Shown here: positions 9,414 through 24,577 of the stretch, one piece after another
How the letters are laid out: each line of letters starts with the position of its first letter
How positions within the stretch are numbered: position 1 is the stretch's first letter
NCBI GenBank assembly: GCA_012960845.1
Contig: DUAN01000051.1
Location: forward strand, 1-39,298
Source of the DNA: Planctomycetota bacterium
GTDB lineage: Bacteria; Planctomycetota; UBA8108; UBA1146
Direction of reading: 5' to 3'
DNA length: 39,298 bases
Notes under the pieces: model-generated
What the model was told of the DNA's origin: nothing
Seen by the model: the letters and a program-made list of their open reading frames with translations, nothing else
Database searches by the model: none
Program-made: the position numbers and the translations under genes

Positions 9414-10504
9414 AAAGGTATCCGGCATACGACCCGGTCGAGTACCAGCAATGGCAAGCCGATCCTGCGGTGATGAAACAGTACCAGAGCAAGATCGAAG
9501 AGCCTCGAGTAGAGGCTTCAGTGGCGAGCCTTGGTGCCACGGGTCTGATCGACCTGTACAAGGGTCTGTTGAGAGCACGCCTCCATGACATCGCATTGAA
9601 GCGATGGGTTCGCACTGGAGTCATCACCAAGGCCTGGCTTGGCTGCGGTGAGGAAGCGGTGACCATCGGCGCATGTCATGCTCTCGGCCCGGATGATGTG
9701 GTCGGTCCCATGATCCGCAATGCCGCGGCCACTTTTGAGCGAGGGATCCCCATCGAGGAGTCTTTCCGCTCCTACCTGGCGACCGGGGATGGAATCACCC
9801 AGGGACGAGATCTTCACTTCGGGGATCTGGACCATGGAGTGGTCGCCCCGATCAGCCATGTCGGGGATCTGGTCCCTGTTTGTGCTGGTTTCGCCCTCGC
9901 CTTTCAGCTCAAGAAGGAGCCACGGGTGGCCCTGACCTGGGTCGGCGACGGATCGACTCGAACCGGTGCGGTTCACGAGGGGCTCTCGATGGCCTCGAGT
10001 CGCTCACTCCCCTTGATCGTGATCATCGAGGACAACGCAGTGGCGCTGGGCACCCGGCGAGATGATCGGTTGGCGAACTCCCTCGCCAGCATGGCTGCGA
10101 GTTACGATGCTGTAGGACTCGAGTGTGATGGCAACCATGTGCTGGATGTACATGCTGCGGTTTCCGAGGCACGAGAGATCTGTATCGACGGTAAAGGGCC
10201 GGTGATCATCTTGGCCCGTACCTTTCGATTTGGCGGCCACGCTACTCATGACGAGGCCGAGGCTCGTGATCTGTTCGAGCCACAGGAGTTCAAGGAGTGG
10301 GCCCTTCGAGATCCCATCGGCTGCTTCGAGGAGTGGTTGCTGGGCCAACGGGAGCGGCTCGGAAAGGATCCTGGACCTGCGCTACAGGAGTGGGAGCAAC
10401 AGGTCATCGACGAGGTGGAGAAGGCTGCGGAGTCTTCGCTGGAGAGTCGGAACAATTCGTTACCCGATGCCGATGCGATGCTGGGGGATGTGTTCGCAGG
10501 TTGA
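9410..10504 (+). CDS. Thiamine-diphosphate-dependent dehydrogenase E1 component, alpha subunit (2-oxoacid dehydrogenase type)
   Basis: RDLHFGDLDHGVVAPISHVGDLVPVCAGFALA...TWVGDGSTRTGAVHEGLSMASSRSLPLIVIIEDNAVALGT...RTFRFGGHATHDEAE. Start overlaps upstream stop (ATGA). Confidence 0.88.
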   Translation: MKRYPAYDPVEYQQWQADPAVMKQYQSKIEEPRVEASVASLGATGLIDLYKGLLRARLHDIALKRWVRTGVITKAWLGCGEEAVTIGACHALGPDDVVGPMIRNAAATFERGIPIEESFRSYLATGDGITQGRDLHFGDLDHGVVAPISHVGDLVPVCAGFALAFQLKKEPRVALTWVGDGSTRTGAVHEGLSMASSRSLPLIVIIEDNAVALGTRRDDRLANSLASMAASYDAVGLECDGNHVLDVHAAVSEAREICIDGKGPVIILARTFRFGGHATHDEAEARDLFEPQEFKEWALRDPIGCFEEWLLGQRERLGKDPGPALQEWEQQVIDEVEKAAESSLESRNNSLPDADAMLGDVFAG

Positions 10505-10511
10505 TCGGTGA

Positions 10512-10871
10512 TCAGTCGCTCGAGGAGGCCTGTTCAGCCGGATCCTCGATGCTGAAGGATGTCCCACAGCCACAGGCTCCACTGGCGTTGGGATTTTCGA
10601 AGACGAAACCGCGCCCCATCAGAGACTCCTTGAAATCGACGGTGGTGCCGTTGAGGAACATCCATGACTTGGGATCGACGATCACCCTCACGCCCTCCAC
10701 ATCGATGACTCGATCCTTCTCGGTCGGAGCCTCGACGATATCCATGCCGTAGGACATGCCGGCACAGCCACCCCCCTGGACATAGAGACGCAATCCACCC
10801 TCTGCCCCGGCGGATTTCTCCAGGGTCAAACGAGCAATCTCTTGTCCTGCGGCTTCCGTGACGTGAATCAT
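10512..10871 (-). CDS. Iron-sulfur cluster insertion/assembly protein, IscA/ErpA/HesB family
   Basis: MIHVTEAAGQEIARL...GLRLYVQGGGCAGMSYGM...NPNASGACGCGTSF, with conserved Cys residues. AGGAGG upstream of ATG at 10871 favours this start over 10910. Confidence 0.93.
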   Translation of the reverse strand: MIHVTEAAGQEIARLTLEKSAGAEGGLRLYVQGGGCAGMSYGMDIVEAPTEKDRVIDVEGVRVIVDPKSWMFLNGTTVDFKESLMGRGFVFENPNASGACGCGTSFSIEDPAEQASSSD

Positions 10872-11015
10872 CTGTCGAATCCTCCTGGCGGGCGAATTTG
10901 GTGAGTGCATCGCTTTAACAGGTCCAATTTAACAGCAATTACTCGGAAACTCCAGCGATCGGGTGGCGTTTCCGCAGGAGGCTATCGGTGATACCTTTCG
11001 ATAGAAGGAGTTCGG

Positions 11016-12008
11016 TTGTCCATCACCTTGAAATCACTGGCCGCGGTGCCCACCTGGCTGACATTGCAGGTGGTCACCATCTTCATCGGTTGGCTTCCGA
11101 TTTCCCGTGCCAGAAGTCTGGGGCGATTCCTCGGGCGGTGCGGTTGGAGATGGCGACGAGCGGAGCGACGGCGCACCTGTGAGCAGTTGAGGCAACTGGA
11201 TCCGGTGCTGGGTCAGAAAACACGTCAGCGCATCGGAAAACGTTGCTTCGAGCAGATGGGAGAAACGATTCTCGAACTGGTCTCGCTCGCCGGAAAGGAC
11301 CTGGATCATCTCGGCAGTCCTCCTCGGCGAGGGGGCGTCGCCATCGAGGGGCTCGTAGAATTTCGCCGTCAGATTGCTGAACTGAGATGCGATGGTAGGG
11401 GAGTGATTCTCATCTCAGCCCACATCGGCAGCTGGGAACTCGCCGGTTCGATCGTCGGCAGGGAGTTTCCCAAAGACAGCCTGTTTCTGGCACGTCGATA
11501 TCTGGATGCGGTCGAACAGAACTGGGTCAACGGTATACGCTATCGGCTTGGTGATCGTCTGGTCTTTCAGGATGAGTCACTGCTACGATCGCTCCGATTG
11601 CTCCACGGAGGTGGAATCCTCGCGATGCTGACCGACCTCGATATCAAGAGGATGAAGGGGATCCACATCCCCTTCCTGGGCAAGGACGCCCATACCACCA
11701 CCGCCCCCGCACGATTGGCTCTCAAATCAGCAGCGAGGTTGCTGCCCTTCTTCATCATCCGGGATCGCCACGGTTATCATATCGAGATCGATCGGCAGAT
11801 CGATCCCTCTGTCCTGACCGGATCGGAGGAGGAGAAGATTCGAGATGTCACCATCGAGATGAATGGGGCCATCGAGCGAGCGATCCGCCGTCATCCATCG
11901 CAGTGGCCCTGGATGCACTCCCGCTGGCACTCGACCCCGGAGATCGTTGAACGACGATCAAGAGTGAGTGCTCGCCGCTCGCTTGAGGGAGAGGCCGAGG
12001 AGGCATAA
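11016..12008 (+). CDS. Lipid A biosynthesis acyltransferase-like (LpxL/HtrB superfamily)
   Basis: GVILISAHIGSWELAGSIVGREF...GILAMLTDLDIKRMKGIHIPFLGKDAHTTTAPARLALKSAARLLPFFIIRD...HPSQWPWMHSRW. TTG start with AAGGAG 5 nt upstream. Confidence 0.87.
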   Translation: MSITLKSLAAVPTWLTLQVVTIFIGWLPISRARSLGRFLGRCGWRWRRAERRRTCEQLRQLDPVLGQKTRQRIGKRCFEQMGETILELVSLAGKDLDHLGSPPRRGGVAIEGLVEFRRQIAELRCDGRGVILISAHIGSWELAGSIVGREFPKDSLFLARRYLDAVEQNWVNGIRYRLGDRLVFQDESLLRSLRLLHGGGILAMLTDLDIKRMKGIHIPFLGKDAHTTTAPARLALKSAARLLPFFIIRDRHGYHIEIDRQIDPSVLTGSEEEKIRDVTIEMNGAIERAIRRHPSQWPWMHSRWHSTPEIVERRSRVSARRSLEGEAEEA

Positions 12009-12108: not shown

Positions 12109-12990
12109 ATGAAAATTCTCTCGATCTTCTCGACTCTGACCTTGTCATTGTTGCTGGGGGCGATGCTGATCACCACATCGTTTCTGTCGGGGCAAGACGC
12201 TCCTGAACTTTCGTGGAAGAAGGGCGATGGGGCAGAGGTTTTTGAGCAAGGAAAGACCGCCTACGCAGCGCAACAGTTCAAGGAGGCGTATGGCTTCTTC
12301 AAGGACGCACGCAAGCAAGCCAAGAATCGAGAGACTCGCACTCATGTCGAACTGTGGCTCGCCTCGACCGAAGGTGCCAACGAACTGATGGCTCTCAAGA
12401 GACAGGCCGCCGATGGAAAAGAGAATGCTGCCTATCGTTTGGCAGTGAAAAACTATTCAAAGTTTTCCAAGACGCTGATCGGAGAGGAATACAAGAAGTT
12501 CCTCACCGATCTGCAGAGGAAATTGTTTCACGTGCTGGAAGATTTCGAGCGCGTCTCTCGTCGATACTCGGAAAAGTACGGCAAGAAATTTATCGACGAA
12601 GCCGAGTGGGTACAGGAGGGCAAGAGAGCCTTGAAGTGGGATGTCGCATCGGGAAAGACCGAGTTGAAAATCAAGGGAGTTCCTGGTGGTCTGTCCGCCT
12701 ACAAGTCGATCGCGTTCTACCTGGACATGCCCAGGGGAGGGTCACCCTACCAGTTGGTGTTCGTCGTCCCGGGGAAATCGGAGGCGGGGGTGAGCCAGGT
12801 AAAGGTGGTCAGCAACGCCTACATCGCCCAGATGAAATCGCACAAGGGCCTCAAGCGGATCGAAGTTCCGCTGCGGAATTTCAAGGGGCAGGGAGATGTG
12901 TCGTGGGATCGGGTCAAGGATTTCAGGATTCAGTTTCTCGGTGCAAAAAAGTTCACTGCCTATGTCGACTTCATTGCGCTGCTAAAGTGA
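12109..12990 (+). CDS. Secreted protein of unknown function with possible C-terminal carbohydrate-binding-like beta domain
   Basis: Signal peptide MKILSIFSTLTLSLLLGAMLITTSFLSGQ. C-terminal DVSWDRVKDFRIQFLGAKKFTAYVDFIALLK resembles the end of CBM/CIA30-like domains (by eye). Confidence 0.7.
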   Translation: MKILSIFSTLTLSLLLGAMLITTSFLSGQDAPELSWKKGDGAEVFEQGKTAYAAQQFKEAYGFFKDARKQAKNRETRTHVELWLASTEGANELMALKRQAADGKENAAYRLAVKNYSKFSKTLIGEEYKKFLTDLQRKLFHVLEDFERVSRRYSEKYGKKFIDEAEWVQEGKRALKWDVASGKTELKIKGVPGGLSAYKSIAFYLDMPRGGSPYQLVFVVPGKSEAGVSQVKVVSNAYIAQMKSHKGLKRIEVPLRNFKGQGDVSWDRVKDFRIQFLGAKKFTAYVDFIALLK

Positions 12991-13723
12991 GCCCTGAAGT
13001 TCCCAGAGGTGAGGTTCCCGAGCCCTCGCGCCAGCAACGATCGAGGTCATCGGTGGCCTGATCGGTCGCCTCGTCGAGTGCACCCTGAAAACGCAAAGCC
13101 GCATCGCGGTCTCCACTTCGCTCGGTGGCGGGGTAGACCGGTGCTCCCACAACGATCACCGCTTTGCCCCAAGGTGCGGGCAGGATCATCCGATCCCAGG
13201 TGGATAGACGCATCGATCGATCGACGGCGAATCCGAGCGGGATCATCGGGATCCCGGTTCTTCTCGCCAGTGCTGCGGCACCTTCTTTTGCCTCTCTGGG
13301 AGGGCCCTTGGGACCGTCGACAGCGAACACCGGGGAGTTCCCCTCGTGTACCAGCTGTTGCAGATCTTGAAAGCCACGCAGTCCTCCACGAGAACTGGAA
13401 CCGAGGGCCAGCGCCACATCGAGATAGTACAGAGCCGAGCCGAGTCGGGCACCATCGTGGTGCTGACTGGTGATGGCGGCAAATCCATTGGAGCGCAGGG
13501 TGTAACTGAGGGGCAGTACCCACTCGTGCCAGAAACCGACCACCAGGTTGCCATGCTTGCGCAGGGCGTCGATGGCGTGGTGACCTCCCGACCAGCGTAG
13601 ATCGAGGGAGTCAAACAGTGCCGGTAGGAGCACCGAAAGTGCCCGGCCTGCGAGGGGATAGGGTGGCTCGGCGGAGGAGTCCTTCATGGCTTCAGCATGA
13701 GGGAGCAGGGGGGGGCTGGTCAA
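12971..13723 (-). CDS. DUF374-type lysophospholipid acyltransferase family protein
   Basis: NLVVGFWHEWVLPLSYTLRSNGFAAITSQHHDGARLGSALYYL...SSSRGGLRGFQDLQQLVHEGNSPVFAVDGPKGPPREAKEGAAALARRTGIPMIPLGFA. Confidence 0.88.
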   Translation of the reverse strand: MTSPPLLPHAEAMKDSSAEPPYPLAGRALSVLLPALFDSLDLRWSGGHHAIDALRKHGNLVVGFWHEWVLPLSYTLRSNGFAAITSQHHDGARLGSALYYLDVALALGSSSRGGLRGFQDLQQLVHEGNSPVFAVDGPKGPPREAKEGAAALARRTGIPMIPLGFAVDRSMRLSTWDRMILPAPWGKAVIVVGAPVYPATERSGDRDAALRFQGALDEATDQATDDLDRCWREGSGTSPLGTSGLTLAAQ

Positions 13724-14814
13724 TGAGACGCTACCTCCTCATCGCTCCGATCCAGCAGTTCCAGTAACGCCTGTTCGACCGCGGTCACCGGGATCGCTGA
13801 CATGCAGAAGGAGTGATCGCAATCGCGCAGTTGGCAAGGAGAGCAGGGGATGGCACTGCGCAGGACGCGAGTCCAGGGCTGTCGTGGGGCGTAGATGCTG
13901 GGGTCCTTGGGACCGTACAGACCGATGGAAGGGATGCGGCGAATCGCGGCGAGGTGGAGGATTCCGGTGTCTGCTGCGACCACACCCTGGCAGCGTCCGA
14001 TCAGTGCCGCCATCGCAGTCAGATCTCTGGTCTCGGGAGCGGCGTGTACGCAGGCTCCCGCTCCCGCGACGATGGCGTCTCTCCCTGTCCGATCTGCTTC
14101 GCCGCCGGAGATCCAGATGCGGTGACCGCGGTGAGCCAGGGATCGCGCCAGTTCCATCCAGCGCGCTGTTGGCCACTCCTTGAAACGGCCGAAGGCGCTG
14201 ACGAAGGGATGCAGCAGGATCGGAGCCTCGCCATCTTCCAGTGTCTCGATGAGAGTCTCGTCGAGAGCATCGTCGACCTCCCCGATCTGACCCGACGGCG
14301 TCGCTCCATCCCAGCCGAGAGCCCTCACCACCGAGAGGGCGCGGTCGCTTCGATGGACTCGCCCGGCAGCTTCGGGCGGGTGATACCCTCGCCACCAGCG
14401 TGGCAATTCACCACCGTCCTGCGGATGAATTCCGATGACGCGATCGGCTCGAGCCAGCAACCGAACCAGTGCCGATCGAAAATTGGACTGCCAGTCGATC
14501 AGCAGGTCGTAGTGTTGCTCACGCAACTCCCGGGTGAATCGGGCGAACATCGGCCAGGCATGGGCACGCTGATCTGGCTGCTTCCAGCTCCTTTTTAATT
14601 CGCTCCTGGGCAGGCTCAAGACCCTGTTCAGTGACGGATGGCCCAGTAGCAGGCCGCTCGACAGGGACTCGGTCACGGCGTCGATCCGGGCTTCAGGAAA
14701 TTGCTCGGAGAGTGCCTCCAGGGCGGGCAGAACCTGAATCAGATCACCGACGGCGGACAGCCGCACGATGAGGATCGAGCGTGGGAACAGGGGTTCGCTG
14801 GGCAGTGGTCTCAC
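13720..14814 (-). CDS. Glycosyltransferase family 9 (heptosyltransferase-like)
   Basis: ILIVRLSAVGDLIQVLPALEALSEQFPEARIDAVTE...GVVAADTGILHLAAIRRIPSIGLYGPKDPSIYAP...CSPCQLRDCDHSFCMSAI. Confidence 0.9.
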   Translation of the reverse strand: MRPLPSEPLFPRSILIVRLSAVGDLIQVLPALEALSEQFPEARIDAVTESLSSGLLLGHPSLNRVLSLPRSELKRSWKQPDQRAHAWPMFARFTRELREQHYDLLIDWQSNFRSALVRLLARADRVIGIHPQDGGELPRWWRGYHPPEAAGRVHRSDRALSVVRALGWDGATPSGQIGEVDDALDETLIETLEDGEAPILLHPFVSAFGRFKEWPTARWMELARSLAHRGHRIWISGGEADRTGRDAIVAGAGACVHAAPETRDLTAMAALIGRCQGVVAADTGILHLAAIRRIPSIGLYGPKDPSIYAPRQPWTRVLRSAIPCSPCQLRDCDHSFCMSAIPVTAVEQALLELLDRSDEEVASH

Positions 14815-14895
14815 GTGGGGTAGAATGATCTCCCCGGGGCTTCGAGGGAAGCCCTGTTCGCAGCTCGAGGGGGGATTCCCCTGGAAGTGAGCCCG

Positions 14896-16011
14896 ATGAG
14901 CGTTCTTCTCGGAATTGAATTACAGGGATCGACCGTCTCCTTGCTGGCGGTGGATCGCAAAGGCACTGTCCTGGCACAGGTACAAGAGCCGGTCAGTGTT
15001 CCTTTTCAGCAGTGGTGGGGGATTCATCCCGATGAGCGGGTGAGATCGGTCAGGGCACTGCTGCAACACGCTTTGCAGGAGGGGCTGATCCGCCCGGCGG
15101 CGGTGGCGGCCATCGGCATCTCCTGTGAGTCTTCGCTGGTGCTGGTCGATGCGGAGATGGAGCCGATTCCGCCGCGCGCTCTCAACTGGCAAGAACTGGA
15201 TCCCGTCGCAACGCTTCCTCGGCAGGTCCTCCGCTCGACCCTGGCCAGTTATCCGAGCATCTTACGCGGCCTCCATTGCGTCTTTGATCTGCAGGACTGG
15301 CTGCGCTACCGCTGGACCGGAGCAGTGGCCACCACCACCGCCTTCGCCTGGAATAGCGGACTGTCCAGTTCGCGTAGTCCAGGCCAGCGCTGGGATGCAG
15401 AAGAACTGCAGCAACTGGGACTCGAGTCGGGACAGGTTCCTCCGCTGATGCCTGGACCCCATAAAATCGGAACCCTTGCCGAAGAATTGGTACGAGAGAC
15501 GGGATTGCCGAGAGGCACCTGGTTTTGTGGGGGTTCCACACCACAAGCCGCACGGCTTTGGCTCGCTGCAGAACCTCGCCCGGGCCAGGGAATCGTCCTG
15601 CTTGAGCCCGATGGGGCGACCTTGTGGCGAGTCGGAGGAGAACCGAAATCAACAGACTCGATCGAAGATGTGATTCCGTCTCCCTACGGTGATCACTGGT
15701 ATCATCGAGAAGCGGTGGAGGTTGCGGATCCCCGTCGAGGAGACACCCCGATCGCCGATGTGGTCCATGATGCTACTTCCATCGATCCCGAGCAGTCGTG
15801 GAGTGTGGATCGGCAATCGATGGTGGTCTCCGCCGATTTTGGTGCCCCGTCGAGAGCACCGGCACTGCTGGCAGGAGTCGGACTCGGCTGGTATCGCGAC
15901 CTGAGGCCGCTGTGGCGCAAGCGTTGTCGATGCGGATCTCTTCAGCAATGGATCGATCAATCGATTCACGATGAGGGATCCCCAGATGTGGAGACGAGAG
16001 AGCAGACGTGA
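14896..16011 (+). CDS. FGGY-carbohydrate-kinase-like protein, truncated and apparently lacking the catalytic Asp
   Basis: VLLGIELQGSTVSLLAVDRKGTVLAQ...VAAIGISCESSLVLVDAEMEPIPPRALNWQELD...FDLQDWLRYRWTGAVATTTAFA...IGTLAEELVRETGLPRGTWFCGGSTPQAARLWLAAEP. Length ~371 aa, shorter than typical FGGY kinases. ORF track starts at GTG 14887. Confidence 0.75.
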   Translation: MSVLLGIELQGSTVSLLAVDRKGTVLAQVQEPVSVPFQQWWGIHPDERVRSVRALLQHALQEGLIRPAAVAAIGISCESSLVLVDAEMEPIPPRALNWQELDPVATLPRQVLRSTLASYPSILRGLHCVFDLQDWLRYRWTGAVATTTAFAWNSGLSSSRSPGQRWDAEELQQLGLESGQVPPLMPGPHKIGTLAEELVRETGLPRGTWFCGGSTPQAARLWLAAEPRPGQGIVLLEPDGATLWRVGGEPKSTDSIEDVIPSPYGDHWYHREAVEVADPRRGDTPIADVVHDATSIDPEQSWSVDRQSMVVSADFGAPSRAPALLAGVGLGWYRDLRPLWRKRCRCGSLQQWIDQSIHDEGSPDVETREQT

Positions 16012-17027
16012 AGAGCAGCACGACCCTCAAGGACCAGCTTCCAGCCCGCTTTCGTGGAACCATGCTCGGTGCCGCCATCGGCAGCGCCCTTGGCTTTCCC
16101 CATTCTGGGTCATCCCGAACCTTCATGAGGGCTCTCGGATCCGAGGTGATCGAGGGCTATGTCCGACATCGTAACGGCTACTTCCCGGTGGGGCAGCATG
16201 GTGCCGGGGTCCAGTTGATGACACTCGCTGCGCAAGCGATGGCCACTGTCGGTTCGGTGCAACCGCAGTCGATCGTCGATCACTGGATTCCGTTGTGGCG
16301 AGAAAATCGCATCATCGAGCGTCTCCCCGATGTCGATGTGGCGATGTCTCGCTGGCTTCGTCGCGGTCCGGATGCCCGGGGCTGTGCCTGCGGACCGGGT
16401 GAGGTGGGCAGTGGATCGCTGATCTCTAGCGTATTGATCGGGCTGTGGGATCACGATGATCCCACTTCGCTGGTCGAGGACTGCGAACGCTTGATCGGTG
16501 TGACTCATGAGGACCAGGAGGTTCGAGCGGTCAGCTCGGCGCTGGCCAGCGTCATCAGTCATAATCTCACCCACAAGGATGTAGTGCTGGGAGATGTGAT
16601 CGATGGAGCCACTGCCGCTGCGGCTCGTATCGACATGGCAGTGGCGGATCGAATCCAGGAGATTCCGATGTTGCTCGCCTCCTCCGAACTGGTGGCCTTT
16701 GATCAACTGGCCAGTTCTCCCGACGAGATTTCAAATGCCGATCACTCTGGAATCGAAAACCGAGCTCTACCGATCTTCCTGGTCGCTCTTCACAGCTGGT
16801 TGAGAAACCCAGCGGAACCGATGCAGGTGATCGGCTCCTGTCTCTCGGCAGGAGGAGCGGTGGAGATGACCGCAGCGGTGGGTGGGGCGCTGGCAGGCTC
16901 CTGCATCGGCGAACATCGCTTTCCTGCAGTGCTCAAGGAGGGACTGCTGGAGGGGGAAGAGATCTCTGCTGCAGCTGACCTTCTCTACCAGAGCCAGGTC
17001 CAGCAACGCAGGCGCAGGAAACTCTAG
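16008..17027 (+). CDS. ADP-ribosylglycohydrolase-fold protein, putative pseudoenzyme
   Basis: RFRGTMLGAAIGSALGFP...GQHGAGVQLMTLAAQAM...GVTHEDQEVRAVSSALASVI...GGAVEMTAAVGGALAGSCIG follows the DraG/ARH layout. GTGA overlap with the upstream stop. Confidence 0.78.
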   Translation: MKSSTTLKDQLPARFRGTMLGAAIGSALGFPHSGSSRTFMRALGSEVIEGYVRHRNGYFPVGQHGAGVQLMTLAAQAMATVGSVQPQSIVDHWIPLWRENRIIERLPDVDVAMSRWLRRGPDARGCACGPGEVGSGSLISSVLIGLWDHDDPTSLVEDCERLIGVTHEDQEVRAVSSALASVISHNLTHKDVVLGDVIDGATAAAARIDMAVADRIQEIPMLLASSELVAFDQLASSPDEISNADHSGIENRALPIFLVALHSWLRNPAEPMQVIGSCLSAGGAVEMTAAVGGALAGSCIGEHRFPAVLKEGLLEGEEISAAADLLYQSQVQQRRRRKL

Positions 17028-17119: not shown

Positions 17120-17350
17120 ATGTCTGGTGAGGTGAGGATGTTCGGCGAGATCGCCTTCGAGATGAGATGGATCTCGACAGCCCATCTGTACGAGGCTCTG
17201 GCGCTACAGGCTCGGGATGAAGCGCGTGGCGAGAAGCATCGATTTCTCGGACAGATTCTCATCGAGCTGGGATATATGACAGACCAGCAGGTGCTCGAGG
17301 TCCTCACGGTCCTTCACGATCGCCCCCGCCATGGCCAGCGGGAGACCTGA
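17120..17350 (+). CDS. Small stand-alone GspE/MshE N-terminal-like domain protein (76 aa)
   Basis: MFGEIAFEMRWISTAHLYEALALQAR...FLGQILIELGYMTDQQVLEVLTVL; resembles the N-terminus of the PilT-like protein at 21048 (MFGRIALKNQLVGEADLRRVMSSL...LGKALVAEGLISAKHAEAI). Confidence 0.7.
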   Translation: MSGEVRMFGEIAFEMRWISTAHLYEALALQARDEARGEKHRFLGQILIELGYMTDQQVLEVLTVLHDRPRHGQRET

Positions 17351-17397: not shown

Positions 17398-18360
17398 TTG
17401 CTCGAACGATGCTGGCGAGCCGGGGTGACCCTCGATCACTGGCGCCATCGCCGTAAAGAAACTGCAGGTGAGTGGCCCCTTCGACTTCCGGTTCCCGTCA
17501 TCAGCATCGGCAACATCACCGTCGGAGGCACCGGCAAAACTCCTCTCACAGAATTGTTGGCTCGAACCTGGCTGGATCGAGGTGGCCATCCGGGCATCGT
17601 CAGTCGTGGTTATCGTGGCGGTGCCGATGGCAATGATGAACACCGGATGCTGCTACGAAGTTTGCCCGGGGTTCCCCATCAGCAACATCGTTGTCGTCAC
17701 ACCGCAGGGCTCCAGTTGCTGGCAGCCCATCCCGAGGTGGATCTACTGCTGATCGATGATGGATTTCAACATCGACGCCTTCATCGAGATCTCGACCTGG
17801 TACTGCTCGATGGACGCAGTCCGCTGGCGGGAGGCTACTGCTTGCCACGGGGGCGCTTGCGAGAGCCCTGGAGTCAGCTGGCTCGTGCCGATCACCTGAT
17901 CCTGACTCGTGTCGAGCGTTGTCGTGATGGGGAACTGGCGAACACCATCGGTTTTTTACGGCAGTGGTTCCCATCGATACCTCGATCGTTGGCGACCACC
18001 GAGGTGGGAGAGGTGAGATCACTCGGCTCAGCGGCGATTCCCGCTGCCGGATCCAGGGTGTTTGGATTTTGCGGTATCGGAGACCCCGATTCCTTTCGAC
18101 AGACACTCACCGATCACGGCTGGAACCTGGTCGGGCTGGAGCCGTTTCGAGATCACCACCGCTACCAGATGGCTGACTTTCGACGCATCGATCGTCAAGC
18201 CGGGGAACGGGGGGCCGAGGCGCTGGTCTGCACTGCCAAGGATGCGGTCAAGATCGAGCTGCTGCTCGCTGCTGGAATGAGTTCCCCATTGCCGATCCTG
18301 GTCCAGGAAGTGACCACGGCAGTCGATCTGGAGCCGATCTTCGCCCAAATTGGTGGATGA
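17398..18360 (+). CDS. lpxK: Tetraacyldisaccharide 4'-kinase
   Basis: VPVISIGNITVGGTGKTPLTELLARTWLDRGGHPGIVSRGYRGG...LLIDDGFQHRRLHRDLDLVLLDGRSPLAGGYCLPRGRLREPWSQLARADHLILTR. True start may lie slightly upstream. Confidence 0.93.
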   Translation: MLERCWRAGVTLDHWRHRRKETAGEWPLRLPVPVISIGNITVGGTGKTPLTELLARTWLDRGGHPGIVSRGYRGGADGNDEHRMLLRSLPGVPHQQHRCRHTAGLQLLAAHPEVDLLLIDDGFQHRRLHRDLDLVLLDGRSPLAGGYCLPRGRLREPWSQLARADHLILTRVERCRDGELANTIGFLRQWFPSIPRSLATTEVGEVRSLGSAAIPAAGSRVFGFCGIGDPDSFRQTLTDHGWNLVGLEPFRDHHRYQMADFRRIDRQAGERGAEALVCTAKDAVKIELLLAAGMSSPLPILVQEVTTAVDLEPIFAQIGG

Positions 18361-18436: not shown

Positions 18437-19408
18437 TTGGTACCGGACTCTCGTTGGCAGCCGCTCGATCTCGGAGATGTGAAACCGATCCCCATCGGTC
18501 AGCGCAGGAATATTGTCCACCGAGATCAGTTTCGCGAACTGTGCGACCCGCAGGGAACCATCGAACAGTTGATCGATTCCTTGCCGGACATCCTGGCTGG
18601 CGGTGAACTGCGTGCTGCAGCGGCTGCGGTGGCTCGATCTGTTGCTGGAGGAGCTCCGGTGATTGCCGCCCTCGGTGGCCATGTGGTCAAGGTGGGAATG
18701 GGTCCACTGATCATCGATCTGATGGAGAAGGGTGTGATCTCTGCCATCGCGATGAACGGGGCGACCGCGATTCACGATCTGGAACTGGCTCTGATCGGCC
18801 AGACATCTGAAGATGTCGAGTCCAATGTCGCCGATGGTACCTTCGGCATGGCGAGAGAAACTGCCGATGCCTTTCGACAGGCGAGTTTGGCTGGCGCCGA
18901 TGAAGTGGGGCTGGGAGCGGCTCTGGGAGACTGGATCGAATCGCAGAGCGCGCCCCATGCCGAGCTCTCGATGTTGCTCAGAGCTCGGCAACTGCGGATC
19001 CCGGCGACGGTTCATGTCGCCATCGGAACCGACATCGTGCACATGCATCCGGGTGTTGCGGGAGCAGATATGGGAGCGGCGACCGCCATCGATTTTCGGT
19101 TGCTAGCAGCGGTGGTCAGTGACCTCGAGAATGGTTGCTGGCTCAACATCGGCTCTGCGGTGGTGATGCCAGAGGTCTTTCTCAAGGTGGTCAACATCGC
19201 TCGTAACCTGGGGAAACCGCTGAATGGAGTGACCGCCATCAACTTCGACATGATCTCGCACTATCGCACCAGTCGAAACGTTTTGCAGCGTCCGGTCGAG
19301 AGAGGGATCTCATTGACCGGCCATCACGAGATCAACTTGCCATTATTCCGGGTTGCCGTGCTGCAACGGATGGCAGCGGAAGATCGAGGAGCCAGTGATG
19401 ATTCCTGA
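18437..19408 (+). CDS. Conserved-looking protein of unknown function between lpxK and hldE
   Basis: Long in-frame ORF with glycine-rich segments PVIAALGGHVVKVGMGPLIIDLMEKGVISAIAMNGATAIHDLELALIGQTSEDV and WLNIGSAVVMPEVFLKVVNIARNLG; 3' end overlaps hldE start. Confidence 0.75.
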   Translation: MVPDSRWQPLDLGDVKPIPIGQRRNIVHRDQFRELCDPQGTIEQLIDSLPDILAGGELRAAAAAVARSVAGGAPVIAALGGHVVKVGMGPLIIDLMEKGVISAIAMNGATAIHDLELALIGQTSEDVESNVADGTFGMARETADAFRQASLAGADEVGLGAALGDWIESQSAPHAELSMLLRARQLRIPATVHVAIGTDIVHMHPGVAGADMGAATAIDFRLLAAVVSDLENGCWLNIGSAVVMPEVFLKVVNIARNLGKPLNGVTAINFDMISHYRTSRNVLQRPVERGISLTGHHEINLPLFRVAVLQRMAAEDRGASDDS

Positions 19409-20903
19409 ACTGAATACCCTGGGGGAGGCGCGCATCCTGGTGGTCGGTGACCTGATGCTCGACGAGTACTTCTACGGCGATATCGAGCGCATCTCGCCGG
19501 AGGCTCCGGTTCCGGTGGTACAGGGGCGTCACCACGAGATGCGAGTCGGAGGGGCAGGGAGCGTGGTGACCAACCTGGCCGCCCTCGGTTTCGAGCCGAT
19601 CGTCGTTGGGCTGGTCGGAGATGACGATGGCGGGCGGTTCATCCGCCAGGCACTCGAGGAGACGGGAGCCCGCACCGAGGGAGTGATCGTCTGTGAGAGC
19701 CGACCGACGATTCGCAAGACTCGGATCCTGGCCGGAGTCCAGCACGCTGGCAGAGCTCAGCAGCAGGTACTGCGCCTCGACCAGGAGGAGAAGAGCCCCA
19801 TCGAGATTGGCCAGCAGACGCTGTTGATCGAGGCCATCCATCACGCTCTTGAGCAAGATCCTGCAGCGGTGCTGATCTCTGACTACGAGAAGGGACTGCT
19901 CGAGAAATCACTGCTCGAGGCGCTGGTCGAGGGGGCTCAGCGACGATCGATTCCGGTGCTGGTCGACCCCGGCCGATCGGGACGCTGGAGTGGTTATCGT
20001 GGGGCGACGCTGATCTGTCCCAATCGATACGAGGCCAGTAGCGCGACCGGGATCGACCTCGACACTGAAGTAAAGGAGCAGTTGAAGGCGGGACAGGCGC
20101 TGGTCGAGGATCTCGAACTGGAGCACTGTATTTTGACCCTGGATCGAGACGGGATCACCCGTGTCTCCGCCAGCGGAGACTCGCGGCGCCATCCGACCCG
20201 GGTTCAGGGGGTCACGGATGTGGCGGGTGCCGGAGACATGGTCCTGAGTCTGCTGGGAGCCGCACTGGCCTCCGGCTGGAACATCGATGATGCCTGTCAA
20301 CTGGCCAATCTCGGGGCCGGAATCGAGGTCCAGAAGGTCGGGGTGCAGCCGGTCGAACGGTGGGAACTGGACGCAGCCAGGAGTGCCTGGATGGGGATCG
20401 TCCCCATCGCACTGCGCTCGTCGCAGCAGATGGAGGAACTGGTCCAGCAAGCGAAGGCCAGTGGCCAGACGGTGGTCTTCACCAATGGCTGCTTCGATCT
20501 GCTCCATGCCGGTCATCTCCAGCTGCTCGAAGCGGCGCGGGCCTTTGGCGATCTGCTGGTGGTTGGAATCAACTCGGATGCGTCGGTGACCCGCCTCAAG
20601 GGCCCCGATCGACCGATTCTGCCCGCCACCGAGCGCGCTCGCTTGCTCGGGGCACTCTCCTGTGTCGATCATGTGGTGGTGTTTGATGAGGACACCCCGA
20701 AAGCACTGATCGGTGCTCTGATCCCCGATGTGCTGGTCAAGGGTGCCGATTACAGCGTCGAGGAGGTGGTGGGTAAGGACGTGGTGGAGGCGGCGGGAGG
20801 CCGGGTCGAGCGGATCACCTTGGTCCAGGGGGCTTCGACCACCGGTCTCATCGAACGAATTCGAAGTGGTACTCGAACTTGCCCCCCGACGCCGGAAGGC
20901 TAG
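19398..20903 (+). CDS. hldE: Bifunctional D-glycero-beta-D-manno-heptose-7-phosphate kinase / heptose 1-phosphate adenylyltransferase
   Basis: PfkB-type kinase half (ILVVGDLMLDEYFYGDIERISPEAPVPVV...VQGVTDVAGAGDMVLSLLGAALASG) plus nucleotidyltransferase half (VFTNGCFDLLHAGHLQLLEAARAFGDLLVVGINSDASVTRLKGPDRPILPATERA). Confidence 0.96.
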   Translation: MIPELNTLGEARILVVGDLMLDEYFYGDIERISPEAPVPVVQGRHHEMRVGGAGSVVTNLAALGFEPIVVGLVGDDDGGRFIRQALEETGARTEGVIVCESRPTIRKTRILAGVQHAGRAQQQVLRLDQEEKSPIEIGQQTLLIEAIHHALEQDPAAVLISDYEKGLLEKSLLEALVEGAQRRSIPVLVDPGRSGRWSGYRGATLICPNRYEASSATGIDLDTEVKEQLKAGQALVEDLELEHCILTLDRDGITRVSASGDSRRHPTRVQGVTDVAGAGDMVLSLLGAALASGWNIDDACQLANLGAGIEVQKVGVQPVERWELDAARSAWMGIVPIALRSSQQMEELVQQAKASGQTVVFTNGCFDLLHAGHLQLLEAARAFGDLLVVGINSDASVTRLKGPDRPILPATERARLLGALSCVDHVVVFDEDTPKALIGALIPDVLVKGADYSVEEVVGKDVVEAAGGRVERITLVQGASTTGLIERIRSGTRTCPPTPEG

Positions 20904-21047: not shown

Positions 21048-22433
21048 ATGACCGATGATACGAAGGAGGGCACCGCCGACAGGCCCTCCAGCGAAGCAGC
21101 CATGTTTGGCCGCATCGCGCTCAAGAATCAACTGGTGGGGGAAGCCGATCTGCGACGGGTGATGTCGAGCCTCACCAGGGGATCGGATCTGGGAAAGGCG
21201 CTGGTGGCAGAGGGTTTGATCTCTGCCAAGCATGCCGAGGCGATCTCGCAAAAAGTTTCCCAGCGCCTCGAGGGCCAGTCGACAGCGGCTAGCGCGGGTG
21301 ACGCCGGGAGTCAGGCGGGGACCACTGCTCGAGCAGGAGTGATCTCGGTCGACGATGTGCAGCGGATGGACTTCACCTCGATGGTCGGCAAGCCGTTGAT
21401 TGAATATCTGCGCAAGGCGCGAGAGCTGGGTTGTTCCGACTTTCATTTCCAGGTCGATTCAGCACCTCTGGTTCGTCTTCACGGACACCTCATCCGCTGG
21501 AAGCATCCAGTACTGTCCGCCGAGGATACTGCCAGAACCATCGAGGAAATGCTCGATGAGAAGCAGTGGATAGATTTGCAACAAGAACAGGATCTGGACT
21601 ACTGCCTCGACGATGGAGACAGGGGGCGCTATCGCACCAACTGCTTCAAGCAGCGCAAGGGTTTCGAGGCGGTGTTTCGGATCATCCCGACCAAGGTGCC
21701 ATCCCTTGAGGATCTGCACCTGCCGGAGGTGCTTTCCCAGTTCACCCAGTACAACCAGGGCATCGTCCTGGTCACCGGGCCAGCCGGTTGCGGGAAGTCT
21801 GCAACGCTGGCGGCGATCGTCGAGCGGATCAACCAGCAGCGCCATGACCACATCGTGACGGTTGAGGATCCCATCGAATACATCTTCACCCCCGCAGGAT
21901 GCAATATCAATCAGCGCCATGTGCACCATCATACAGAGAGCAACTACAGCGCCTTGCGATCGGCGATGAGGGCCGATCCTGATGTCATCATGGTGGGCGA
22001 GATGCGCGACGTGGAGACGATCTCGATGGCCATCACCGCCGCAGAAACGGGGCACCTGGTTCTGGCCACACTTCACACGACCAATGCCATTCGATCGATC
22101 GATCGCCTGATCGATGTGTTTCCGCCTCGAGAGCAGGAGCAGGTCCGAGCGATGGTGTCCGAGTCGATGCGAGGGGTCATCTCGCAGCAGTTGTTGCCGC
22201 GAAAAGATGGCACCGGCGTTGAGCCGGCGCTGGAGATCATGTTCACCACTCCGGCGGTCGGAAATCTGATTCGGGAGGGCAAGACATACCAGCTGGCGTC
22301 GGTGCTCCAGACCGGTCGTAAACAGGGAATGATCACGATGGATGACTCGATTCGCAACTTGCTCCGTAAGGGAATTGTGACCCTGGAGACCGCTCGATTC
22401 CACGCGGAGGACCCCTCCGCCATGCAGGGTTAG
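21048..22433 (+). CDS. PilT-family ATPase with N-terminal GspE/MshE-N-like domain
   Basis: N-term MFGRIALKNQLVGEADLRR...; Walker A TGPAGCGKSATLAA; DPDVIMVGEMRDVETISMAITAAETGHLVLATLHTTNAIRSIDRLIDVFP. Confidence 0.9.
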   Translation: MTDDTKEGTADRPSSEAAMFGRIALKNQLVGEADLRRVMSSLTRGSDLGKALVAEGLISAKHAEAISQKVSQRLEGQSTAASAGDAGSQAGTTARAGVISVDDVQRMDFTSMVGKPLIEYLRKARELGCSDFHFQVDSAPLVRLHGHLIRWKHPVLSAEDTARTIEEMLDEKQWIDLQQEQDLDYCLDDGDRGRYRTNCFKQRKGFEAVFRIIPTKVPSLEDLHLPEVLSQFTQYNQGIVLVTGPAGCGKSATLAAIVERINQQRHDHIVTVEDPIEYIFTPAGCNINQRHVHHHTESNYSALRSAMRADPDVIMVGEMRDVETISMAITAAETGHLVLATLHTTNAIRSIDRLIDVFPPREQEQVRAMVSESMRGVISQQLLPRKDGTGVEPALEIMFTTPAVGNLIREGKTYQLASVLQTGRKQGMITMDDSIRNLLRKGIVTLETARFHAEDPSAMQG

Positions 22434-22443
22434 GAAAATATCG

Positions 22444-23508
22444 ATGTCTGTTGAAGCACTCGAAAAACTACTCTGCAAGATTCTAGAAGTCGAGGGGTCT
22501 GATCTTCATATCAGTGCCGGAATGCCTCCCAAGATCCGCATTCATGGACACCTCAGGCCGATCAGCAAGGAACCTCTCACCAATCAACAGGTCGAGGATC
22601 TGCTGCTCCCCTCCCTCGATGAGAAGCGCAGCGCGATCTTTGCCGAGAAGAATGATCTCGATTGGGCCTACGCCATTCCTGGAGTGGCACGCTTCCGCTG
22701 TAGCTTCTTCAGGCAGCAACACGGGATGTCCGGGGTATTCCGGATCATTCCCGAGGAGATCAAGACGGTTCAGGAACTGGGGGTGCCCTCTCATATCGAA
22801 GATTTCTGTAAACTACGTAATGGTTTGATCCTCTGCACGGGTCCGACAGGAAGTGGAAAATCGACGACCCTTGCGGCGTTGATCGACTACATCAACAGCA
22901 ATCAGTCGAGGCACATCGTGACCATCGAGGAGCCGATCGAGTTCGTGCATCAGAACAAGAGCTGTCAGATCACCCAGCGCGAGGTGGGAATCGATACGGA
23001 GTCCTTCGCTCGGGCGTTGCGGTCGGTCAGTCGCCAGGATCCGGACGTGATCCTGGTCGGTGAACTTCGAGATCTGGAGACGATCAGTCTTGCCATCACC
23101 GCCGCAGAGATGGGGTACCTGGTATTTGCTACCCTCCATACCAATAGTGCTGCCAAGACGGTCGACCGGATCATCGATGTGTTTCCTGAAGATCAGCAAA
23201 ACCAGGTGCGCACGATGCTCTCTTCATCGCTCAAGGGAATCATCGCCCAGTTACTGATCCCGAGGCAGGATGGCAAGGGTCGTGTGGCGGTCAATGAGTT
23301 GCTCTTCCATGATGGATCCTTGCCCAACATCATCCGTGAGGGTGCGGTGCACAAGATCGTCTCGCTCATCGAGGGTGGACGAGGTAAGGGGATGCAATTG
23401 ATGGACGATTCCATCATGGTCGCATTGAAGAAGGGTGACATCAGTCCAGAACATGCGTACCGATGGGCCAGCGAGAAGAAGAAATTTCAGCACTTCCTGA
23501 AGGGTTGA
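22444..23508 (+). CDS. pilT: Twitching motility protein PilT (type IV pilus retraction ATPase)
   Basis: GSDLHISAGMPPKIRIHGHLRPI...LCTGPTGSGKSTTLAALIDYIN...TIEEPIEFVHQNKSCQITQREVG...DPDVILVGELRDLETISLAITAAEMGYLVFATLHTNSAAKTVDRIIDVFP. Confidence 0.95.
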   Translation: MSVEALEKLLCKILEVEGSDLHISAGMPPKIRIHGHLRPISKEPLTNQQVEDLLLPSLDEKRSAIFAEKNDLDWAYAIPGVARFRCSFFRQQHGMSGVFRIIPEEIKTVQELGVPSHIEDFCKLRNGLILCTGPTGSGKSTTLAALIDYINSNQSRHIVTIEEPIEFVHQNKSCQITQREVGIDTESFARALRSVSRQDPDVILVGELRDLETISLAITAAEMGYLVFATLHTNSAAKTVDRIIDVFPEDQQNQVRTMLSSSLKGIIAQLLIPRQDGKGRVAVNELLFHDGSLPNIIREGAVHKIVSLIEGGRGKGMQLMDDSIMVALKKGDISPEHAYRWASEKKKFQHFLKG

Positions 23509-23512
23509 TCGG

Positions 23513-24577
23513 TTGTCTGACCCCGAACGGCTACTGATCCGGTTGCCGACCTGGGTCGGAGATGCGGTGATGGCTACCCCTGCCCTTCGGGCGGTGAGAA
23601 GAGACCTTCCTCACACCCGCATCGCGCTGATGGGAGGGGCGCATCTCGAACCCTTGCTCGCCGATGCGGACCTTTTCGATGACTGGATCGCGACCGCTTC
23701 AGGTTCGGGCAAGGTCGCTGCCAACATCGCTGCGATCCACAACTTTGGCGCCGATGTGGCACTGCTTCTTCCACATTCCTTTCGAACTGCCTGGGAAATC
23801 TGGCGTGCATCGGTTCCACGGCGCATTGGCCTGAGGGGGCAACTCCGGGGCTGGTTGCTGACCGATCCGCTTCGCCGACACCGCCTTCCGCCGGGGCGGC
23901 GCGCCATCCCCATGCATCACGAGTATCTGGAAGTGGTGGCCTCGCTGGGAGCTTCTGGCGACGGAATCGGTTCGAGACTCGGGGTTGGCGAGGAAGTGGT
24001 CGTTGCTGCGACCCGGCGCCTCGATGCTCTCTCCATCGGTTGCGATCGCGATTGGATCGGATTCCACCCGGGAGCGGCCTTTGGCCCCTCCAAGATCTGG
24101 CCCCTCGATCGAATGGCGCGGGTCGCTCGCACCTTGAGGGATGAAGACGGCTGCGGAATCGTCATCACCTGTGGTCCGGGAGAGGAGCCCTTGGCCCGGC
24201 AATTGAGAGACCTGGTGGGGGGGGAGGTGGTCGATCTTTCCGAAGATCTGTGGCCGCTCGACCAGCTCAAGGTCTTGATGGGGAGATTGGCACTACTGGT
24301 GACTGGCGATACTGGTCCTCGGCATATCGCTGCCGGGATGGGTACCCCGCAAGTGGTCCTGATGGGCCCCACCAGTCCCGATTACACCGACGCTTACCTG
24401 GAAACGACCCGCGTGATCCGGCGCGAAGATGTCGATTGCAGTCCCTGTCAACAAAAGGTCTGCCCACTGGGACATCACCAGTGCATGACCTTCATCGAAC
24501 CGGAGGCGGTGATCGAAGAGGTGCGTCGCTGGCTGGCACGGGCGGCCGATTCGGCAGAGGGAGCGGAGCGAGCGTGA
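23513..24577 (+). CDS. Glycosyltransferase family 9, heptosyltransferase II-like
   Basis: LLIRLPTWVGDAVMATPALRAVRRDLPHTRIALMGG...WIGFHPGAAFGPSKIWPLDRMARV...LVTGDTGPRHIAAGMGTPQVVLMGPTSPDYTDAY...DCSPCQQKVCPLGHHQCMTFI. TTG start. Confidence 0.9.
   Translation: MSDPERLLIRLPTWVGDAVMATPALRAVRRDLPHTRIALMGGAHLEPLLADADLFDDWIATASGSGKVAANIAAIHNFGADVALLLPHSFRTAWEIWRASVPRRIGLRGQLRGWLLTDPLRRHRLPPGRRAIPMHHEYLEVVASLGASGDGIGSRLGVGEEVVVAATRRLDALSIGCDRDWIGFHPGAAFGPSKIWPLDRMARVARTLRDEDGCGIVITCGPGEEPLARQLRDLVGGEVVDLSEDLWPLDQLKVLMGRLALLVTGDTGPRHIAAGMGTPQVVLMGPTSPDYTDAYLETTRVIRREDVDCSPCQQKVCPLGHHQCMTFIEPEAVIEEVRRWLARAADSAEGAERA

Follow-up and report, generated by a model that had tools for sequence, protein, structure and literature searches.

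The open reading frame at positions 16,008–17,027 of the window, by which we mean the whole 39,298-nucleotide stretch analyzed here (contig DUAN01000051.1 of a Planctomycetota bacterium, GTDB lineage Planctomycetota; UBA8108; UBA1146), encodes a 339-amino-acid protein of the ADP-ribosylhydrolase (ARH) fold in which most of the metal ligands of the family have been lost. We consider it fairly probable (about 60%) that this protein is a pseudoenzyme that contributes to envelope biogenesis without catalysis, by binding or as a scaffold, and probably together with the product of the upstream FGGY-like gene, a putative pseudokinase. Both the role and the partnership are inferred from gene linkage.

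Fold and metal site of the ARH-like protein

The ARH-like gene lies on the forward strand, as do all the residues located below, and its GTG start codon overlaps the stop codon of the upstream open reading frame by 4 bp (GTGA). In a profile search, the protein matched PF03747 over residues 17–307, almost the whole model, with an E-value of 9.8e-26 and a score of 91.5 bits (curated cut-off, 26.2 bits). The AlphaFold2 model, built from 30 aligned orthologues and relatives, had a mean pLDDT of 91.4 and a pTM of 0.93. Foldseek comparison of this model with the PDB gave ARH-fold proteins at the top ranks, namely MJ1187 (1t5j; TMq 0.80, E = 7e-13), a Thermus ARH-related protein, DraG, and ARH3. Since both the profile and the all-helical predicted fold agree, the protein is a member of the ARH superfamily by descent and by fold. 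The first-pass annotation had read a DraG/ARH layout from the sequence and proposed an HMM search and a structure prediction as checks, and both bear this layout out. The PDB profile matches also included chain FP of 6sga (mt-SAF23), an ARH-family protein whose name hints at a role in mitoribosome assembly, so that it may be a further ARH without catalysis.

The motif positions were set by alignment to solved ARH proteins (phmmer to MJ1187/1t5j) and to the orthologues of the class. At TDDT the window protein reads G65-A66-G67-V68 (16,200–16,211), and at GGDxDT it reads GGAVEM (G282-G283-A284-V285-E286-M287; 16,851–16,868), so that both signature motifs are replaced, as first annotated. No intact TDDT or GGDTDT was found elsewhere when the whole protein was inspected. 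The further claim that the acidic metal-binding residues were lost applies to four of the five carboxylate ligands, but not to E286, which remains acidic at the second Asp of GGDxDT. This position has Q in genus g5 and either D or E in g3, and is thus no conserved ligand. In addition to the losses first reported, S33 (16,104–16,106) occupies the position of the Glu-flap glutamate (GxPxE), and S26 (16,083–16,085) that of the Asp of GDALG, which is D in the three ligand-intact relatives (L017, L018, and L056).

The window protein therefore has neither the TDDT/GGDxDT metal ligands of the DraG, ARH1, and ARH3 enzymes nor the flap glutamate of ADP-ribosylhydrolases. The ARH ligand set and the weight of its single members have been reviewed, and in ARH1 the single change D56N is inactivating (PMC7050489). 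With the binuclear metal centre lost, the protein is, judging from its ligand positions, very probably unable to hydrolyse ADP-ribosyl bonds. Failing this metal-ligand comparison, it should not be filed as an ADP-ribosylhydrolase, and an automatic label of 'ADP-ribosylglycohydrolase' would mislead.

Retention of the gene and ligand loss across the class

The dN/dS values of the window gene, computed by the Nei-Gojobori method against four congeners and one species of the next genus, were 0.10–0.15, similar to those of the neighbouring lpxK and hldE genes. Between other relatives the value fell to 0.026, giving an overall range of 0.03–0.15. The gene was present in 29 of the 30 class genomes compared, including all 16 of high quality, and the sole genome without it is 82% complete. 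Its reading frame was open in every orthologue. The earlier argument that this is not simple decay is thus supported by the open frame and by the low dN/dS against relatives, which indicates strong purifying selection. In nine representatives of the ligand-less clade, 70% of the motif-region positions other than the ligands were invariant, compared with 41% elsewhere (P = 1.3e-4), for motif regions that we picked from the family motifs and whose conservation is partly that of structural glycine. A protein that is retained and under selection although most of its metal-binding Asp are gone fits the type of ARH pseudoenzyme represented by vertebrate ADPRHL1.

The named records bearing orthologues are mostly Planctomycetota metagenome-assembled genomes (MAGs), many of them marine by title, and they form a graded series at the metal site. 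The basal relatives L017, L018, and L056 keep all five acids. L016, congeneric with L017, is half-lost, with DAT and GGATDT at the two motifs. Family f5 mostly has GDT or GDI and GGNMST, family f3 has AFT and GGG, and families f4 and f6 show different partial losses. The clade of the window protein (genera g1, g3, and g5) has A-G/S/A-V and GGAxxx. The question raised in the first-pass annotation, namely whether orthologues in related Planctomycetota also lack the Asp residues, thus has a divided answer. The 13 other g1, g3, and g5 orthologues do lack them, whereas the losses are partial in other families and the three basal relatives are intact. Canonical ARH paralogues elsewhere in the class genomes have all five acids intact.

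A maximum-likelihood gene tree, built without the motif columns, placed the class orthologues in one group (support 96/96) with the ligand-intact sequences basal. Parsimony on this tree gave three ligand-loss changes over all sequences, two within the class and one in L067. The tree joined the window clade to other families and left out g4, a genus of the same family as the window. A monophyletic window family was, however, not rejected (AU p = 0.062), and the loss count is therefore a minimum. By this parsimony count, the ligands were lost independently at least twice in the class. L067 is a Myxococcales MAG whose ARH relative (10,001–10,954) has GGFTAS where GGDTDS would be expected and keeps DDT, a further independent loss that lies beyond the Planctomycetota.

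A truncated FGGY relative and the surrounding envelope genes

The open reading frame directly upstream (14,887–16,011, forward strand) encodes a 374-amino-acid relative of FGGY carbohydrate kinases. It matched FGGY_N (PF00370) with an E-value of 2.1e-13 and had no match to FGGY_C (PF02782), the one PF02782 match of the genome being on contig C88. The AlphaFold2 model had a pLDDT of 88.8, and Foldseek matched it to xylulokinases and LsrK. T218 (15,538–15,540) stands at the position of D233 of XylB (GGGD) in a profile alignment to 2itm, and D233 is a residue that we take to be the catalytic base. In this column most relatives have T, S, E, V, H, or L, and the Asp is kept in L055, L056, L057, and L123. 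Lacking the catalytic Asp of FGGY kinases, this class-wide truncated relative is a probable pseudokinase and a probable operon partner of the ARH-like protein.

The FGGY Asp is kept in all three ligand-intact ARH relatives and absent in 24 of the 25 others (Fisher P = 0.001, uncorrected for relatedness). On the tree, this co-loss corresponds to just two independent contrasts (sign test p = 0.5), so the idea that the two sites were lost jointly is suggestive only. It should be noted that L123 (G019) keeps the FGGY Asp alongside three of the four core ARH acids. The FGGY-like gene adjoins the ARH gene in every f1 and f2 genome having both. In families f3–f6, FGGY orthologues of similar length are found at a distance from the ARH gene, and several have a DUF374, GT9, or lipid A acyltransferase gene close by. 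Where the pair is split, the ARH gene is still near lpxK/hldE and the FGGY-like gene near GT9/DUF374/LpxL.

Genes for lipopolysaccharide (LPS) and envelope functions flank the pair on both sides; the first-pass annotation of the ARH-like protein mentioned neither these nor the FGGY-like neighbour. Before it are genes for an LpxL-like lipid A acyltransferase (11,016–12,008, forward strand; PF03279) and, on the reverse strand, an acyltransferase-like DUF374 protein (12,971–13,723; PF04028) and a GT9 family glycosyltransferase (13,720–14,814; PF01075). The segment 12,079–12,990 encodes a 303-amino-acid protein that is conserved with the lipid A genes and has no family match over threshold. After the pair, all on the forward strand, follow genes for a small protein with an MshE-type c-di-GMP-binding domain (17,120–17,350; NF053729, 39.2 bits against a cut-off of 38, and synteny), the lipid A 4'-kinase LpxK (17,398–18,360; PF02606, E = 3.6e-68), a GSU2086 family protein (18,437–19,408; NF052581, E = 1.2e-105), and HldE of ADP-heptose synthesis (19,353–20,903). 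The HldE match to NF008454 (E = 3.7e-134, 448 bits) is below the cut-off of 521, and that to TIGR02199 is over the cut-off. Beyond hldE are two PilT/PilU-type ATPase genes (21,048–22,433 and 22,444–23,508; both over the TIGR01420 cut-off) and a gene for LPS heptosyltransferase II (23,513–24,577; over the TIGR02195 cut-off).

The synteny of the ARH gene and lpxK was compared in families f1, f2, f3, and f5. On sufficiently long contigs of f1, f2, and f5, the ARH gene adjoins the MshE-type gene near lpxK, in divergent orientation in f5, and in f3 it adjoins lpxK itself. Two features of the cluster are recorded here in their own right. The MshE-type protein has 76 amino acids, barely more than the c-di-GMP-binding domain, with two motif repeats recognizable by eye, and its position between the pseudo-ARH gene and lpxK is conserved in most of the class. 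The paired PilT/PilU-type ATPase genes between hldE and the heptosyltransferase gene are likewise conserved in the class. The LPS linkage is guilt by association, and the gene-dense cluster also contains these pilT genes.

Proposed role, alternatives, and known systems

The preferred reading is that a metal-dependent ADP-ribosylhydrolase was the ancestor and that its binuclear metal centre was then lost. The ARH-like and FGGY-like proteins would be made from one transcript, and the ARH-like protein would serve as a scaffold or as a binding subunit that helps to assemble or regulate lipid A and the LPS core, or the envelope-pilus system. The cleft of its former active site has probably kept the capacity to bind a ligand or the surface of a partner.

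The main rival, which we regard as unlikely, is a repurposed enzyme performing a new, non-ARH chemistry with another metal or none. The ligand-less clade has six new invariant polar residues in or near the motif regions (H64, E104, C126, C128, E132, and E168), a pattern that is also compatible with a different chemistry. H64, E104, E132, and E168 occur in none of the ligand-intact relatives compared, and C126 and C128 are each matched in single relatives (L056, and L016/L017, respectively), never both together. The two cysteines form a new invariant CxC loop (C126-A127-C128; 16,383–16,391) directly before the former GNGA loop, and an invariant C278 stands before the GGDxDT loop. However, the CxC loop is modelled with lower confidence (block mean pLDDT 75–86), and ligand loss in other families of the class was not accompanied by a gain of these residues. 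To our knowledge, no ARH-fold enzyme has a CxC/Glu/His site of this kind.

The conserved non-ligand residues of the cleft motifs would also suit a reader of nucleotides or ADP-ribose that kept binding, lost hydrolysis, and is unconnected to LPS, which we regard as quite unlikely. A search of the window genome found no second, active ARH gene and no macrodomain match, so ADP-ribose signalling is not evident there. Moreover, the LPS linkage is class-wide, and in ADPRHL1 a similar loss is considered to prevent the binding of substrate (PMC7390403).

A surviving ADP-ribosylhydrolase that relies on replacement ligands, for which E286 at one ligand site and several new Glu could be cited, is very improbable. 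Both Asp of TDDT, the first Asp of GGDxDT, and the flap Glu are all absent, E286 is Q in g5, and the single D56N change mentioned above suffices to inactivate ARH1. We rejected the reading as a pseudogene or decaying gene, to which lost catalytic residues and relatives at different stages of loss might point, given the open frames throughout, the dN/dS range, and the retention in nearly all genomes.

A further, more specific reading can be stated, which we hold to be decidedly doubtful. The pseudo-ARH and the pseudo-FGGY might together form a two-part, non-catalytic sensor-scaffold that serves the supply of LPS core and tunes lipid A/core assembly. The ARH cleft would read an ADP-sugar, for example the ADP-heptose that HldE, encoded nearby, produces and the neighbouring heptosyltransferases consume, and the FGGY cleft would read a sugar. 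If so, catalysis would have been lost jointly in two adjacent enzymes of a single ancestral pathway, which would have become a regulator.

One bacterial class thus displays a natural series from ligand-intact (L017, L018, and L056) through half-lost (L016) to ligand-free proteins, with most members located in one conserved cluster. The pairing of ARH-like and FGGY-like genes in LPS clusters poses a testable question about the envelope role of two apparently dead sugar/nucleotide enzymes in uncultured Planctomycetota. ARH pseudoenzymes are already known in eukaryotes. In the open-access subset of the literature, searches on bacterial ARH pseudoenzymes, on ARH with LPS in Planctomycetes, on FGGY pseudokinases, and on mt-SAF23 returned nothing on the present system, that is, on a lineage-wide bacterial ARH pseudoenzyme with a truncated FGGY partner in LPS clusters.

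Among characterized proteins, XylB (2itm) and LsrK (5ya0) share the fold of the FGGY-like protein, with the N-terminal domain aligning. In contrast to their length of about 480–540 amino acids, the FGGY-like protein has 374, lacks FGGY_C, and has Thr in place of the catalytic Asp. MJ1187 (1t5j), DraG (2woc), and ARH3 (2foz/6d36) have the same all-helical fold as the ARH-like protein over its full length, with profile homology, but they possess the ligands of TDDT and GGDxDT as well as the flap Glu, whereas the window protein keeps one of the five carboxylates. The large Orf2971-FtsHi motor complex of chloroplasts includes an ARH-fold subunit, ARHL (8xks chain Q). Where ARHL aligns to the window protein, its motifs too are degenerate (GQYTGDF and GGHAPAT), which would make it a precedent for a non-catalytic ARH fold, although it is organellar and shares only 16% identity across the structurally matched region. 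A known ARH pseudoenzyme is ADPRHL1 (ARH2) of vertebrates, which has lost three of its four metal-binding Asp and yet is conserved, its altered ancestral active-site loop being essential in the frog heart (PMC7390403, PMC10601310). The window protein resembles ADPRHL1 in being conserved despite the loss of most metal-binding Asp. However, ADPRHL1 is a eukaryotic protein of heart muscle, whereas the window protein arose by a separate loss in bacteria, has other residues at the metal site, and is encoded beside a probable pseudokinase in an LPS cluster.
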